A stretch of 45,388 nucleotides of DNA from Clostridia bacterium (lineage in GTDB: Bacteria > Bacillota > Clostridia > Oscillospirales > Acutalibacteraceae), in assembly GCA_017449935.1 (NCBI GenBank), contig JAFSYP010000034.1, forward strand, positions 1 through 45,388, written 5' to 3'. The position numbers and the translations under genes were made by a program. A model generated the notes under the pieces. That model was not told the origin of the DNA. It did no database searches and worked only from the letters and a program-made list of their open reading frames with translations. Of the stretch, positions 31,342-35,393 are shown in pieces. How positions within the stretch are numbered: the stretch's first letter is position 1; every line of letters starts with the position of its first letter.

Positions 31342-32700
31342 TTATTCTTCCCGCACGAAGCTGCGCAGACAGTGCGTGCGATCGGGCGACCTGCCGACGG
31401 CGAGATCGAAGATCAGCCGCATGGCGTCCGCGTTGCCGCCGATCTCGTGCATCTGGCGGTCGAACACGGCGAACGCCTGCACGAAGCTCTCCGGATCGTC
31501 CTGATCGAACGGCATACTGGAGCCGAGCTGCAGAACGCCGTCCGTGTCCGTGCGGTCGGCGCAGGCCAAAAGGCGCATGAACTGAAAATCGCTGCTTTCC
31601 TCGCCCGGCTTCAGACCGGTCCCGCCGACGAAGGAGAAGCGTATGCCGCACGTTTCAAAGATCTCCCGCATATGCGCGCGCCGGTTCTCCTGCGCGCGGA
31701 TGAAACGGTCCGCCTGCTGCTGCACGGCGGCAAGCCGCGAATTCTGCCGGAAGCGTTCCGGTGAGAACAGGTAGGCATACATGTCCTGCCACCGCGCGTG
31801 CGGCACCAGCGCGAGGAACGCGCTCGAGCGCATCAGGACGCCGTCCAGCAGCGCGTCCAGCAGCTGCCGCAGCAGCGCGTTCGTGCGGTCGGGACGGCGC
31901 GTCAAAAGCCGCAGCAGCGCCGGCGGGAGCTTTTGCGCGGGCAGCAGCTCGTCATAAACGCGCGCGTTCCATTGCGGGCAGACGCTGCCGCGCAGAAGAT
32001 CCGCGAACCCTTCGCTGCCGTCCCATGCGCCGACGACCGAAACGATCCGGCGGATAAAATTCTCCCGAACGGGACCGCGGTCGGTATAGTAGGCGTCGAG
32101 ATACGCGAGCGTCACGGCGGCGCCCATGCTCATCGGGATGAGGACGACCTTGTCCTCCCTGCGCTTTTGCACGATCCCGCGCAGCGTTTCGTGCAGCGCG
32201 TCCGCGGCGGCGTACAGGTCGGTGAAGGGCGAATAGTTGAAGCAGTACATATTCTCCGCGCCGTATTCGCGCATAAAGTCGCGGCACGGCACGTCCCGCA
32301 GCAGTCTGTCCAGCAGGCTTTTGGAAGCGTCCTGCGTCGGCTCGCCGGAGAAGAAATCCACGCGGGAGAGCTCGTCGAAGCTGCGCGTGCCGTAGATATG
32401 CACCTCGGCGCAGTCCGGCAGTCTGCCGTCGTCGTCGACGATGCAAAAACGCAGCAGCGTCGTCAGCGCCGCACGCAGCGCGGTCTGATCGGCTTTCTTG
32501 TCCGTCAGCAGCGCGTGCGCGATCTCCCGCACGCCGCGCAGAAGGCGCAGCCGCTCTTTTCCGGACAGTCCGCCGAAAACGACGTCCTTGTCCCGCGCAA
32601 AAAGATTCCAGCGTACCCGATCGTTGCCGTGCAGCGACGTCCACGTCTGACCGACGCCGGTCACGAATACAAGCGGATAGCGCACGCTGTCCTGTTCCAT
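31342..32700 (-). CDS. LCAT-like alpha/beta hydrolase
   Basis: A 452-residue protein without signal peptide. PLVFVTGVGQTW sits where LCAT-type acyltransferases and phospholipases have their oxyanion region; FNYSPFTDLYAAADALHETL and VVLIPMSMGAAVTLAYL (nucleophile Ser) follow, and a late GGNADAM/HCLRSF may hold the His. The pattern is the lecithin:cholesterol acyltransferase superfamily, seen in many gut clostridia, with unknown natural substrate. Start at 32700, 8 bases from GGAGG; an ATG two codons upstream is too close. It lies 75 bases after the acyl-CoA synthetase gene on the same strand, so it may be read through from the T-box promoter. Confidence 0.7.
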   Translation of the reverse strand: MEQDSVRYPLVFVTGVGQTWTSLHGNDRVRWNLFARDKDVVFGGLSGKERLRLLRGVREIAHALLTDKKADQTALRAALTTLLRFCIVDDDGRLPDCAEVHIYGTRSFDELSRVDFFSGEPTQDASKSLLDRLLRDVPCRDFMREYGAENMYCFNYSPFTDLYAAADALHETLRGIVQKRREDKVVLIPMSMGAAVTLAYLDAYYTDRGPVRENFIRRIVSVVGAWDGSEGFADLLRGSVCPQWNARVYDELLPAQKLPPALLRLLTRRPDRTNALLRQLLDALLDGVLMRSSAFLALVPHARWQDMYAYLFSPERFRQNSRLAAVQQQADRFIRAQENRRAHMREIFETCGIRFSFVGGTGLKPGEESSDFQFMRLLACADRTDTDGVLQLGSSMPFDQDDPESFVQAFAVFDRQMHEIGGNADAMRLIFDLAVGRSPDRTHCLRSFVREE

Positions 32701-32775
32701 GTTCATTCCTCCGTTCCGATGCAGGGGCAGACAAAAGAAGAGACTGCGCGCGCAGCCCCTTCTTCGGATCGAGCC

Positions 32776-35064
32776 TTACAGCAGGTTTCTCTGGATCTTG
32801 CCGCTGACGGTCTTGGGCAGACTGTCGCGGAAGACGACGATTCGCGGATATTTGTAGGGCGCGGTGTGCGCCTTGACGTAGTTCTGGATCTCTTTTTTCA
32901 GTTCCTCCGTCCCTTCCGCGCCGGGCACGAGCACGATGCTCGCCTTGACGACCTGTCCGCGCACCTCGTCCGGCGCTGCGGAAACGCCGCATTCCAGCAC
33001 GTACGGCAGCTCCATGATAACGCTCTCGATCTCGAACGGACCGATGCGGTAGCCGGAGGATTTGATCACGTCGTCCACGCGGCCGACGTACCAGTAGAAG
33101 CCGTCCTCGTCCTTCCACGCGACGTCACCGGTATGGTAGTAGCCGTCGTGCCACGTTTCGTTCGTCTTTTCGGGGTCCTTGTAGTAGTAGACCGCCAGAC
33201 CGTTGGGCAGGCCGTTCTGCAGATTGATGCAGATCTCGCCCGTCTGACCGACCGGCACGCTGTTGCCGTCCGCGTCTAAAAGATCCACGTCGTAGATCGG
33301 CGCGGGCTTGCCCATCGAGCCGATCTTGTGCGGCGCGCCGACCATATTGCCGATGATCATGGTGCTTTCGGACTGGCCGAAGCCTTCTAAGATCTGCAGG
33401 CCGGTCGCCTTTTCAAACTGGCGGTAGACCTCGGGGTTGAGCGCCTCGCCCGCGGTCGTCATGTGACTGACAGAGGAGAAGTCGTACTGGGAAATGTCCT
33501 GCTTGATCATCATGCGCAGCATCGTCGGCGGCGCGCAGAACGTGGTGATGTGGTACTTTGCGAACATCGGCAGGATGTCGGCGGCGTCGAAGCGGTCGAA
33601 ATCGTAGACGAACGTGGCGGCTTCGCACAGCCACTGGCCGTACAGCTTGCCCCACATGGCCTTTGCCCAGCCGGTGTCGGAGATGGTGAAGTGCAGGCCG
33701 TCGGGATCGACGGTGTGCCAGTATTTCGCGGTGTGGAAGTGCCCGAGCGCGTATTTGTAGTTGTGCGCGGCGATCTTCGGGTAGCCGGACGTGCCGGAGG
33801 TGAAGTACATCATCATCAGATCGTTGCCGCCCGGCGCGTCGGACATGCGGCGGTAATGTGTGCTGTACAGCGGGTATTCCTCGTCGAACGTGCGCCAGCC
33901 CTCGCGCGTGCCGTTCACGATGATCTTGTGCTGAAGCGTTGGGCTCTTTTCGGCGGCGATATCCACCTGATGCGCCGTGTCGCCGTCCGCCGTGCAGAGG
34001 ATCGCCGTCACGCCAGCCTTGTTGAAGCGGTACTCGAAGTCGTGCTCCTGGAGCTGATTGGTGGCGGGGATGGCGATGGCGCCGAGCTTGTTGAGTCCCA
34101 GAATGGCGAACCAGAACTGATAGTGCCGCTTGAGCACGAGCATCACGCGGTCGCCCTTCTTGATGCCGAGAGACTTGAAGTAGTTCGCGCACTGCGCGGA
34201 CGCTTTTTTCATATCGCGGAAGGTGAAGCGCCGCTCGGTCTTGTCGCGGGAGATGTGCAGCATCGCCAGCTTTTCCGGTTCGCGCGCGGCGAGCGCGTCC
34301 ACCAGATCGAACGCGAAGTTGAAGCGTTCGGTGTTTTTGAACGTGATGGACGTCGGCGTCCCGTTTTCGTTTTCCGTGACGTCGATGAATTTCTGATAGA
34401 TACGCGGCTTCGTGTCCTTTTCGACGTGGCGCGTCTCCGTGATCGTCTGTTGTGCGCCCAGCTCCGGGATCGGTTCGCCGGAGGGATTGAGGACGATGGC
34501 GTAGAACAGGCAGTCCTTGCCGCCGACGGCGATCATGCCGTGGGGCGAGTCGCTGTTGTAGTAGATGCTGTCGCCGGGGCCGAGCGTTTCCTTGTGCTCG
34601 CCGACCTGCACCATGAGATTGCCCTCCACGACGATGTCCAGCTCCTGTCCCTGGTGGGTGGTCAGCTCGATGTCGCGCTGCTGCGCCTGCTCGTCGTAGA
34701 TCGACCGCACCAGAAGCGGATCGGCGATACGGTTACGGAACGCGTAGGCGAGATTGTAGTACGTCATGCCGTGCGCGTTGCCGACCTTCTGCCCCTTGCC
34801 GGCGCGCGTGAGCGTATAGGACTTGAGCGTGGGGCTGCTGCCCTCGATGATGTCGGTCACGTCCACACCCAGCGCCATGGCGCAGCGGTACAGGAACGCG
34901 AAGTTGAGATCGCTCTTGCCGTCCTCGCAGCGCAGATATTCTTCTTCGGAAACGCCGGTCTTCTGCGCCATTTCCGCCGCGTCAAGCCCCTCGATCTCGC
35001 GCAGAGCGCGGATACGCGCGGCCATTTCCTGGATCTGAAAATCCAGAGCTTTCATCTGTTCCAT
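32776..35064 (-). CDS. HTH-cupin-acyl-CoA synthetase fusion (MACS-like)
   Basis: A 762-residue three-part protein. Residues 10-75 are an XRE-type helix-turn-helix (AAEMAQKTGVSEEEYLRCED). Residues 125-195 are a cupin (HQGQELDIVVEGNLMVQVG, then GPGDSIYYNSDSPHG). Residues 225-762 are an adenylate-forming ligase with FTSGTSGYPK (421-430), GFGQSES (561-567), TGD (645-647), GRVDDVIKSSGYRIGP (661-676) and the catalytic Lys756 in SGKIQ. The ligase resembles medium-chain acyl-CoA/acetyl-CoA synthetases. Start ATG 35064 is 9 bases from GGAG; the longer frame lies inside the T-box leader. The HTH-cupin half may sense a ligand. A T-box controls the gene. Confidence 0.88.
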   Translation of the reverse strand: MEQMKALDFQIQEMAARIRALREIEGLDAAEMAQKTGVSEEEYLRCEDGKSDLNFAFLYRCAMALGVDVTDIIEGSSPTLKSYTLTRAGKGQKVGNAHGMTYYNLAYAFRNRIADPLLVRSIYDEQAQQRDIELTTHQGQELDIVVEGNLMVQVGEHKETLGPGDSIYYNSDSPHGMIAVGGKDCLFYAIVLNPSGEPIPELGAQQTITETRHVEKDTKPRIYQKFIDVTENENGTPTSITFKNTERFNFAFDLVDALAAREPEKLAMLHISRDKTERRFTFRDMKKASAQCANYFKSLGIKKGDRVMLVLKRHYQFWFAILGLNKLGAIAIPATNQLQEHDFEYRFNKAGVTAILCTADGDTAHQVDIAAEKSPTLQHKIIVNGTREGWRTFDEEYPLYSTHYRRMSDAPGGNDLMMMYFTSGTSGYPKIAAHNYKYALGHFHTAKYWHTVDPDGLHFTISDTGWAKAMWGKLYGQWLCEAATFVYDFDRFDAADILPMFAKYHITTFCAPPTMLRMMIKQDISQYDFSSVSHMTTAGEALNPEVYRQFEKATGLQILEGFGQSESTMIIGNMVGAPHKIGSMGKPAPIYDVDLLDADGNSVPVGQTGEICINLQNGLPNGLAVYYYKDPEKTNETWHDGYYHTGDVAWKDEDGFYWYVGRVDDVIKSSGYRIGPFEIESVIMELPYVLECGVSAAPDEVRGQVVKASIVLVPGAEGTEELKKEIQNYVKAHTAPYKYPRIVVFRDSLPKTVSGKIQRNLL

Positions 35065-35358
35065 AGTTTTGCACTCCGTTTCCGGGACGAAAAAAGCCCG
35101 TCCCAAAGATGTCTTTGAGACGAGCGCATTTGCACCCGCGGTACCACTCAAATTGCGAGGCGATGCCCCGCCGCTCTCGGAGTCTGACAACTCCTATGCC
35201 TTAACGCAGCAGTCACGGGGAGGGTCTACTTGCGGACGCTTTCTTCCTCCCGGCTCGGAAGCTACAATACGGAAACGGTGTCTGTCGGCTTTTCACCGGC
35301 CGCCGACTCTCTGCGAGGCCTGAAACCGTATACTCTTCGTCAACGCCTTTAAAAAATT
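35065..35358 (-). promoter_or_regulatory. T-box riboswitch leader
   Basis: The minus-strand leader has the T-box core GTGGTACCGCGG (35147-35136) with CGTCTC downstream for the antiterminator, and a terminator hairpin formed by GCTCGTCTCAAAG and CTTTGGGACGGGC ahead of a T run. The 5' part folds as Stem I: AGTA on the 5' side, CAGAGAG and GGTGAAAA in the distal arm, CCGTATTGTAGCTTC on the 3' side. The variable base in UGGUACC is U, which pairs with tRNAs whose discriminator is A. The specifier codon is not secure; by analogy with glyQS, GUA (Val) is the best reading. Confidence 0.85.
35089..35126 (-). terminator. T-box regulated terminator
   Basis: GCTCGTCTCAAAG and CTTTGGGACGGGC form the stem, followed by TTTTTT (35095-35090), 25 bases before the start codon. 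It competes with the antiterminator, which uses the CGTCTC half. Confidence 0.85.
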
Positions 35359-35364
35359 TTTCAT

Positions 35365-35393
35365 ATTGTAGCATGATTCATGGGGATTGTCAA
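35365..35393 (-). promoter_or_regulatory. Sigma-A type promoter of the T-box unit
   Basis: A consensus TTGACA (35393-35388), a 17 base spacer and TACAAT (35370-35365) place the transcript start near 35358 at the 5' end of Stem I. Confidence 0.85.

Follow-up and report, generated by a model that had tools for sequence, protein, structure and literature searches.

T-boxes normally control aminoacyl-tRNA synthetases or the biosynthesis and transport of amino acids, and we wondered what one does in front of an acyl-CoA synthetase gene in a bacterium of the Acutalibacteraceae (Clostridia; GenBank assembly GCA_017449935.1). The window analysed here is the whole of a 45,388-nucleotide stretch, positions 1 to 45,388 of contig JAFSYP010000034.1. 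A first-pass annotation made from the letters alone had placed between 35065 and 35393 a complete T-box with promoter, Stem I, UGGUACC core and terminator, and all of these parts were located on the minus strand of the window, in the order promoter (35393-35365), T-box leader, terminator (35125-35090) and start codon (ATG at 35064). The sigma-70-type promoter, TTGACA-17-TACAAT with a TG before the -10 element, agrees with the consensus at 11 of 12 positions (0.1 such promoters expected in shuffles). Behind it, from Stem I to the antiterminator, lies a match to the Rfam T-box family RF00230 (35352-35113) that covers model positions 1-219 of 219 with 89.9 bits (E 2.9e-20, 601 bases searched) and ends 48 nt before the ATG. 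The covariance alignment, together with the matching column in homologues, reads the specifier codon as GUA (valine; 35265-35263), the codon that had been suggested as possible. The bulge UGGUACC (35146-35140) has U at its variable position (35143) and is enclosed by a 6-bp antiterminator outer helix of UUUGAG (35152-35147) and CUCAAA (35119-35114). The intrinsic terminator, GCUCGUCUCAAAG-ACAU-CUUUGGGACGGGC-UUUUUU (35125-35090), has a 13-bp stem, six U and a folding energy of -22.9 kcal/mol, and its 5' arm overlaps the 3' strand of the antiterminator. As CUCAAA belongs to the terminator stem too, the antiterminator and terminator folds are mutually exclusive. The U of the core had been taken to point to a tRNA with discriminator A, and all three tRNA-Val genes found in the same genome (anticodons UAC, GAC and CAC) carry discriminator A followed by CCA; tRNA-Ile was absent among the 30 of 47 tRNA-matching loci retrieved from this genome.

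Homologues of the synthetase were collected by a search of genome contigs, from which the best 80 of 596 loci were taken. These 80 are mostly from metagenome-assembled genomes, many of them from the rumen or hindgut of goat, cattle, sheep, deer, buffalo or yak and a few from horse, and the closest (L008, L009 and the goat-rumen locus L013) encode synthetases 93-94% identical to that of the window. Across the order, 194 of 295 genomes have a match at E 1e-100, distant synthetases included. In a protein tree (quick method, midpoint root), from which matches below 700 bits, matches not spanning residues 15-750, duplicate proteins and those with an internal stop had been removed, clade A (102 rows), to which the window synthetase belongs, separates from clades B and C (73 rows) with an SH-aLRT value of 100.

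The leaders of these homologues, whose comparison had been recommended, bear out the T-box. Upstream regions could be read for 156 homologues, once those starting beyond the locus, eight exact duplicates and L004 (which repeats the window) were set aside, and 147 of them contain TGGNACC. Two of these motifs, 419 nt (L029_A) and 379 nt (L057_A) away, were strays by eye, leaving a T-box in 145 of 156 regions; two of the nine regions without the motif (L071 and L080_B) are cut by contig ends. In L029, L057, L066 and L075, the clade-A gene lies directly behind a clade-B gene, with almost no gap and without a T-box of its own. The last upstream motif reads TGGT in 96 of 97 clade-A regions, where the exception (L020) is a stray match at the start codon and two of the 96 (L029 and L057) are the strays far upstream, in 50 of 50 clade-B regions and in 22 of 22 regions before a LeuA-like gene. 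With leaders of odd distance or short upstream sequence left out, a terminator below -10 kcal/mol with a U run follows in 89 of 92 clade-A and 47 of 48 clade-B leaders, compared with 4% and 2% of their shuffled controls, and in 22 of 22 leaders of the LeuA-like set, which was left unshuffled.

Viewed alone, the window leader is less conspicuous. Its covariance score falls about 3 bits short of the Rfam gathering score (93 bits), which is a listing rule and no biological feature, so that a scan of the whole window at that score came back empty; an isoleucine leader from the same genome scores 94.9 bits and lies above it. The covariance-model check proposed in the first pass was thus positive in length and E-value but fell below the gathering score. 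Other synthetase leaders behave similarly: in a permissive scan of five loci, the ten synthetase leaders and two LeuA-like leaders all reached E 4e-15 or better, nine of these ten synthetase leaders fall short of the gathering score by as much as 15 bits, and a scan of ten loci at that score gave nine matches, only two of them synthetase leaders. Most synthetase leaders read lack the GAA found ahead of the specifier in the Rfam consensus, and L054, L073 and L188 have it; a specifier loop shortened in this way may explain the low scores. When the whole leader was folded freely, the T-box shape did not appear (z -1.35, 16 of 200 shuffles as good), a terminator scan taken alone was near chance (1 found versus 0.8 expected), and an antiterminator helix of at least 5 bp, a weak test alone, also forms in 68-72% of shuffled leaders (68% for clade A). 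Despite the weak free folding and terminator scan, conservation across homologues settles the identity of the T-box, and we consider it confirmed, as far as comparison of sequences goes, that a complete T-box of the transcriptional type precedes the synthetase gene.

Does the valine codon hold beyond the window? The specifier column was aligned for 169 leaders (147 synthetase, 22 LeuA-like), of which six were too short and 163 were read. Among 93 clade-A leaders, 87 have GUA, three GUC and one GUG, giving valine in 91; the other two (L054 and L073) were unalignable and show GUC after GAA by eye. All 48 clade-B leaders read AUC (isoleucine), and the 22 LeuA-like leaders read CUC (21) or CUG (one), both leucine, with L150 repeating the own-genome copy L002. 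After thinning to below 90% identity, the specifier fits in 84 of 86 clade-A, 44 of 44 clade-B and 21 of 21 LeuA-like leaders. The third-base changes conserve the amino acid, indicating codon reading in this register. A serine reading of clade B, one base on (UCC or UCA), was rejected, as the same register gives stop codons in clade A. It also disagrees with the UGGU bulge: tRNA-Ser normally carries discriminator G, which would need UGGC. Specifier labels on the tree came from a crude pattern that includes misreads (for example, L034, L036, L039, L148 and L154-L156), and the assignment of specifiers to clades consequently rests on the alignment column and on reading by eye. Together, these data support GUA as the specifier of the window leader and a clade-wide split between valine and isoleucine in the two paralogues.

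The gene behind the leader (32776-35064, minus strand) encodes a 762-residue protein in which Pfam recognizes HTH_31 (residues 13-70, XRE type), Cupin_2 (131-190), AMP-binding (259-614) and AMP-binding_C (678-756), as expected for the HTH-cupin-acyl-CoA synthetase first suggested. The AMP-forming core and the C-terminal domain (PF00501 and PF13193) pass their cut-offs with 208.5 and 71.9 bits. Its best solved relative is 3ETC (616 bits; the next reaches 343), the medium-chain acyl-CoA synthetase MacsMa of Methanosarcina acetivorans, an archaeal enzyme that aligns with residues 213-759 and leaves the HTH-cupin part outside the match. MacsMa is reported to favour 2-methylbutyrate (PMC10455477). 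The best NCBIfam profile is MbcS (NF047394), at 420.5 bits against an equivalog cut-off of 850, and the window synthetase is not filed as MbcS because its score lies far below that cut-off. In Staphylococcus aureus, MbcS is reported to activate 2-methylbutyrate and isobutyrate, and isovalerate poorly, and to supply branched-chain fatty acid synthesis and thereby membrane lipids; the main text of that report makes no mention of T-boxes (PMC10026030). From its relatives, we predict that the clade-A protein is an isobutyryl-CoA synthetase. The next open reading frame downstream (31342-32706, minus strand, 454 residues) has no Pfam or NCBIfam match and is perhaps co-transcribed. As it adjoins the synthetase in no other locus compared, it probably lies outside the system, and we dropped it as a candidate partner. 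A 51% identical paralogue of it is encoded on another contig of the same genome, C29 (L153:7023-8336).

The two paralogues differ in the catalytic part. Five positions there are class-specific at 85% or more between A and B, when split by identity to the window protein, and the strictest is residue 467 (codon 33666-33664), which follows the residues GW. It is Ala in 102 of 102 clade-A proteins and Gly in 58 of 58 clade-B proteins, 15 of 15 clade-C proteins and 3ETC, and in each of ten further tandem pairs one copy has Ala and the other Gly. At the aligned position, the acetyl-CoA synthetase 9G79 has the Val of GWVTG, which we take to be part of the acetate pocket. The pattern fits a smaller pocket for a smaller acid, which would be isobutyrate in clade A and 2-methylbutyrate in clade B.

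To what pathway would such enzymes belong? In related loci, the synthetases have a characteristic company. Counting same-strand protein matches in the best 80 of 596 loci, we found a P-loop protein in 58, ferredoxin in 56, the clade-B synthetase (ACS_B) in 56, the VorB, VorA and VorC subunits of a 2-oxoacid:ferredoxin oxidoreductase (VOR) in 55, 53 and 49, IlvE in 48 and the LeuA-like protein in 20. VorB is present in 53 of the 57 tandem loci within this set. A count of gene order based on open reading frames came out lower because antisense frames displaced some genes. The commonest orders in the 80 loci follow the series ACS_B, ACS_A, P-loop protein, ferredoxin, VorB, VorA, VorC and IlvE, with the LeuA-like gene behind (12 loci), divergent before (nine) or not seen (12). 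In 19 of the 80 loci, clade A stands alone among the genes tested, as it does in the window. A representative VorB (543.8 bits, NCBIfam cut-off 399) and IlvE (TIGR01123, 398.5 bits, cut-off 250) pass their cut-offs, and the representative beta, gamma and ferredoxin subunits score below the NCBIfam and above the Pfam cut-offs. The LeuA-like protein, which contains HMGL-like and LeuA_dimer domains, falls far short of the LeuA equivalog cut-offs, and no T-box motif lies upstream of four of the 26 LeuA-like genes. The 220-residue P-loop protein between synthetase and ferredoxin or VOR (for example, L027:8305-8973) shows a weak CbiA match below the cut-off.

The genome of the window contains some of the same elements, on separate contigs. 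Seven T-box matches were found in it: that of the window, an isoleucine T-box on contig C50, a leucine (CUC) T-box before a LeuA-like gene on C120 and four others. On C50, the T-box precedes ACS_B, the P-loop protein, VorB and VorA, and the contig ends inside VorA; the clade-A gene and the VOR genes are thus on different contigs. In this 87% complete assembly, no class IV aminotransferase (PF01063; IlvE) was found, and the two PF01558 matches lie away from C50 on other contigs. Given the completeness, the remaining genes of the C50 cluster may have been lost. Another of its T-boxes (C29:73032-73290; L007, and L153 from about 3200), with UGG (Trp) as specifier and UGGC in the bulge, precedes a long open reading frame that begins MNQIPYKIYLNETEMPTAWYNLRADMKNK and presumably resembles a TrpB2-type tryptophan synthase beta chain. 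It is perhaps another salvage enzyme, turning indole to tryptophan, under a T-box.

IlvC and IlvD of the de novo route were likewise not found in this 87% complete assembly. Among 34 genomes with both paralogues, the own genome included (24 with their clade-A copy on the tree, the other ten with Ala and Gly tandem copies), IlvC was found in three and IlvD in four, versus 17 and 17 of 20 genomes without a synthetase match (Fisher 2e-8 and 1e-7), these controls being those listed among 101 such genomes rather than a random draw. Within the own family, IlvC is present in none of six genomes with both paralogues (own included) versus ten of ten without a match, and it also occurs in two other family genomes that carry one C-type synthetase. 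A further set of 34 genomes, picked mainly because they have C-type or single synthetases (G113, with A and B, is one of them), includes nine with IlvC. Taken together, the loss goes mainly, but not exclusively, with the valine-type copy.

Synthetases outside clades A and B were compared in the same way. In 20 further loci, a T-box motif lies upstream of the synthetase in 18 (not in L169 or L171), and all 18 specifiers read AUC by eye. The tree places five of these loci with clade B and 15 as C-type (L154-L164 and L166-L169), 14 of the latter with an isoleucine T-box; VOR genes were found beside none of the 15 C-type synthetases within the stretches fetched. One genome (G153) carries A, B and C synthetases. 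Across the phylum, 59 of 299 genomes have a synthetase match, and a T-box precedes the synthetase in four of 29 distant loci (in L177 it was seen by motif only; L194 was assessed at the gathering score alone). Read by eye, residue 467 and the specifier are Ala and GUC in L176, Gly and AUC in L177 and L186, and Ala and AUC in L188, so the pairing of Ala with valine and Gly with isoleucine holds in three of four distant loci and fails in L188, whose protein is 51% identical. The AUC T-boxes L186:1097-1337 and L188:3492-3239 (88.6 and 94.7 bits) precede synthetases that lack the fused N-terminal HTH-cupin part in the aligned stretch, indicating that T-box control is not tied to the fusion; in several other distant loci, HTH-cupin is a separate neighbouring match. 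Some distant synthetases (L194-L199 and L178), some of them near VOR genes, have Leu or Met at residue 467 and possibly use other substrates. In L178-L184, several distant homologues with the N-terminal part show one to five in-frame TGA or TAA codons, perhaps because the search joined an HTH-cupin gene to a distinct synthetase gene, or perhaps because the genes are broken.

The leader anatomy, the specifiers with their clade pattern, the gene order of related loci and the missing IlvC and IlvD are observed at the sequence level, and from them we infer antitermination, the acids activated and the direction of flux. We propose, with a probability of about 0.82, that a tRNA-Val-responsive transcriptional T-box controls an isobutyrate-activating synthetase that feeds valine synthesis by reductive carboxylation, with clade B serving isoleucine and the LeuA-like enzyme leucine in parallel. 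Uncharged tRNA-Val would pair with the GUA of Stem I and the UGGU of the bulge and stabilize the antiterminator, so that transcription continues into the gene. The clade-A synthetase would convert isobutyrate to isobutyryl-CoA, which a VOR-type oxidoreductase working in the reductive direction would carboxylate to 2-oxoisovalerate, and the branched-chain aminotransferase IlvE would then yield valine. The clade-B paralogue, under its isoleucine T-box, would lead 2-methylbutyrate to isoleucine by the same route, and the LeuA-like enzyme, under a leucine T-box, would pull 2-oxoisovalerate towards leucine. On this best reading, the T-box keeps its usual role in amino acid supply and acts on an unusual pathway, the classical branched-acid route of the rumen. 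The first-pass contrast with normal T-box targets is thus less sharp than first described, since the related loci and the missing IlvC and IlvD speak for amino acid biosynthesis. Against our reading count the detachment of the clade-A gene from VOR in its own genome, where no class IV aminotransferase was found, the loci with clade A alone, the IlvC kept in three of 34 genomes with both paralogues and in nine of the 34 others, the non-random choice of the 20 controls, the mismatch in L188 and the score below the gathering threshold.

A link to branched-chain fatty acids had been raised, as speculation, when the T-box was first noticed. The synthetase would then make isobutyryl- and 2-methylbutyryl-CoA to prime the branched-chain fatty acids of the membrane, with low valine or isoleucine as a proxy for missing primers. 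MbcS, an enzyme of branched-chain fatty acid supply, is after all the best NCBIfam profile, and the window gene has no VOR neighbour; yet the MbcS cut-off is missed (420.5 versus 850) and the neighbours in tandem loci are VOR, IlvE and LeuA-like genes. A genome missing IlvC and IlvD also demands another source of valine, and one T-box per amino acid better suits amino acid supply. We consider lipid supply unlikely as the main purpose: as one acyl-CoA could serve both ends, fatty acid synthesis may be a side use, but the genes nearby give no hint of a lipid role. The clade-A enzyme might instead take another acid, such as isovalerate or propionate, with the valine specifier acting as indirect control. 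Its substrate is assigned from sequence, C-type relatives have isoleucine T-boxes without VOR alongside, and L188 breaks the Ala/Gly pairing; still, the clade-wide valine specifier, the strict Ala/Gly difference between clades, the adjacency of VOR and the kinship with enzymes for 2-methylbutyrate and isobutyrate make such a substrate very improbable. That the cluster runs oxidatively, gaining energy by decarboxylating branched amino acids to acyl-CoA and acid, is hardly credible even though VOR enzymes are known in peptide-fermenting anaerobes, as synthetases of the AMP-forming type consume ATP in making acyl-CoA, T-boxes switch genes on with uncharged tRNA, which is the wrong sign for catabolism, and IlvC and IlvD are mostly missing.

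Synthesis of valine from isobutyrate under tRNA control would also permit a wider scenario, which we put forward tentatively and at somewhat less than even odds. A lineage of gut Clostridia may have given up the acetohydroxyacid route for a salvage regulon with valine, isoleucine and leucine T-boxes, in which the HTH-cupin-fused entry enzymes are possible trigger enzymes. The HTH-cupin sensor may bind DNA and report the branched acid or its CoA ester, which would create a two-input gate of uncharged tRNA and acid. The specifiers label each synthetase with an amino acid and so turn a cryptic acyl-CoA synthetase into a specific gene that can be tested. If our reading is right, T-boxes together with missing IlvC and IlvD would predict branched-acid-dependent gut bacteria from genomes. 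Branched-acid supplements are under test in ruminants (PMC10311502).

How does this system compare with known ones? With the RF00230 family, the window leader shares the full-length match, the Stem I specifier, the UGGN bulge and the alternative antiterminator and terminator folds, and it differs in its target, an acyl-CoA synthetase, and in missing the consensus GAA before the codon. This enzyme is an addition to the kinds of gene under T-box control. The words acyl-CoA and oxidoreductase are absent from the main text of one T-box survey (PMC2494555), as are acyl and oxidoreductase from that of another (PMC7778990), and our search, which lay outside most subscription papers and the T-box database tables, found no paper joining T-boxes with acyl-CoA synthetases, 2-oxoacid oxidoreductases or isobutyrate. 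In Geobacter metallireducens, a leucine T-box is reported before leuA, as before the LeuA-like gene here, but no acyl-CoA synthetase is described under it there (PMC2700814). The chemistry that we predict, and its habitat, are those of the rumen work of Allison, Peel and Robinson (cited in PMC7356843): that source gives isobutyrate as a precursor of valine and 2-methylbutyrate of isoleucine, and its references date the formation of valine, isoleucine and leucine by rumen microbes from isobutyrate, 2-methylbutyrate and isovalerate to publications since the 1960s-70s. Those are physiological studies by title, whereas our proposal concerns a cluster of genes in which each amino acid has its own tRNA switch, and it joins a known switch to a known physiological route.
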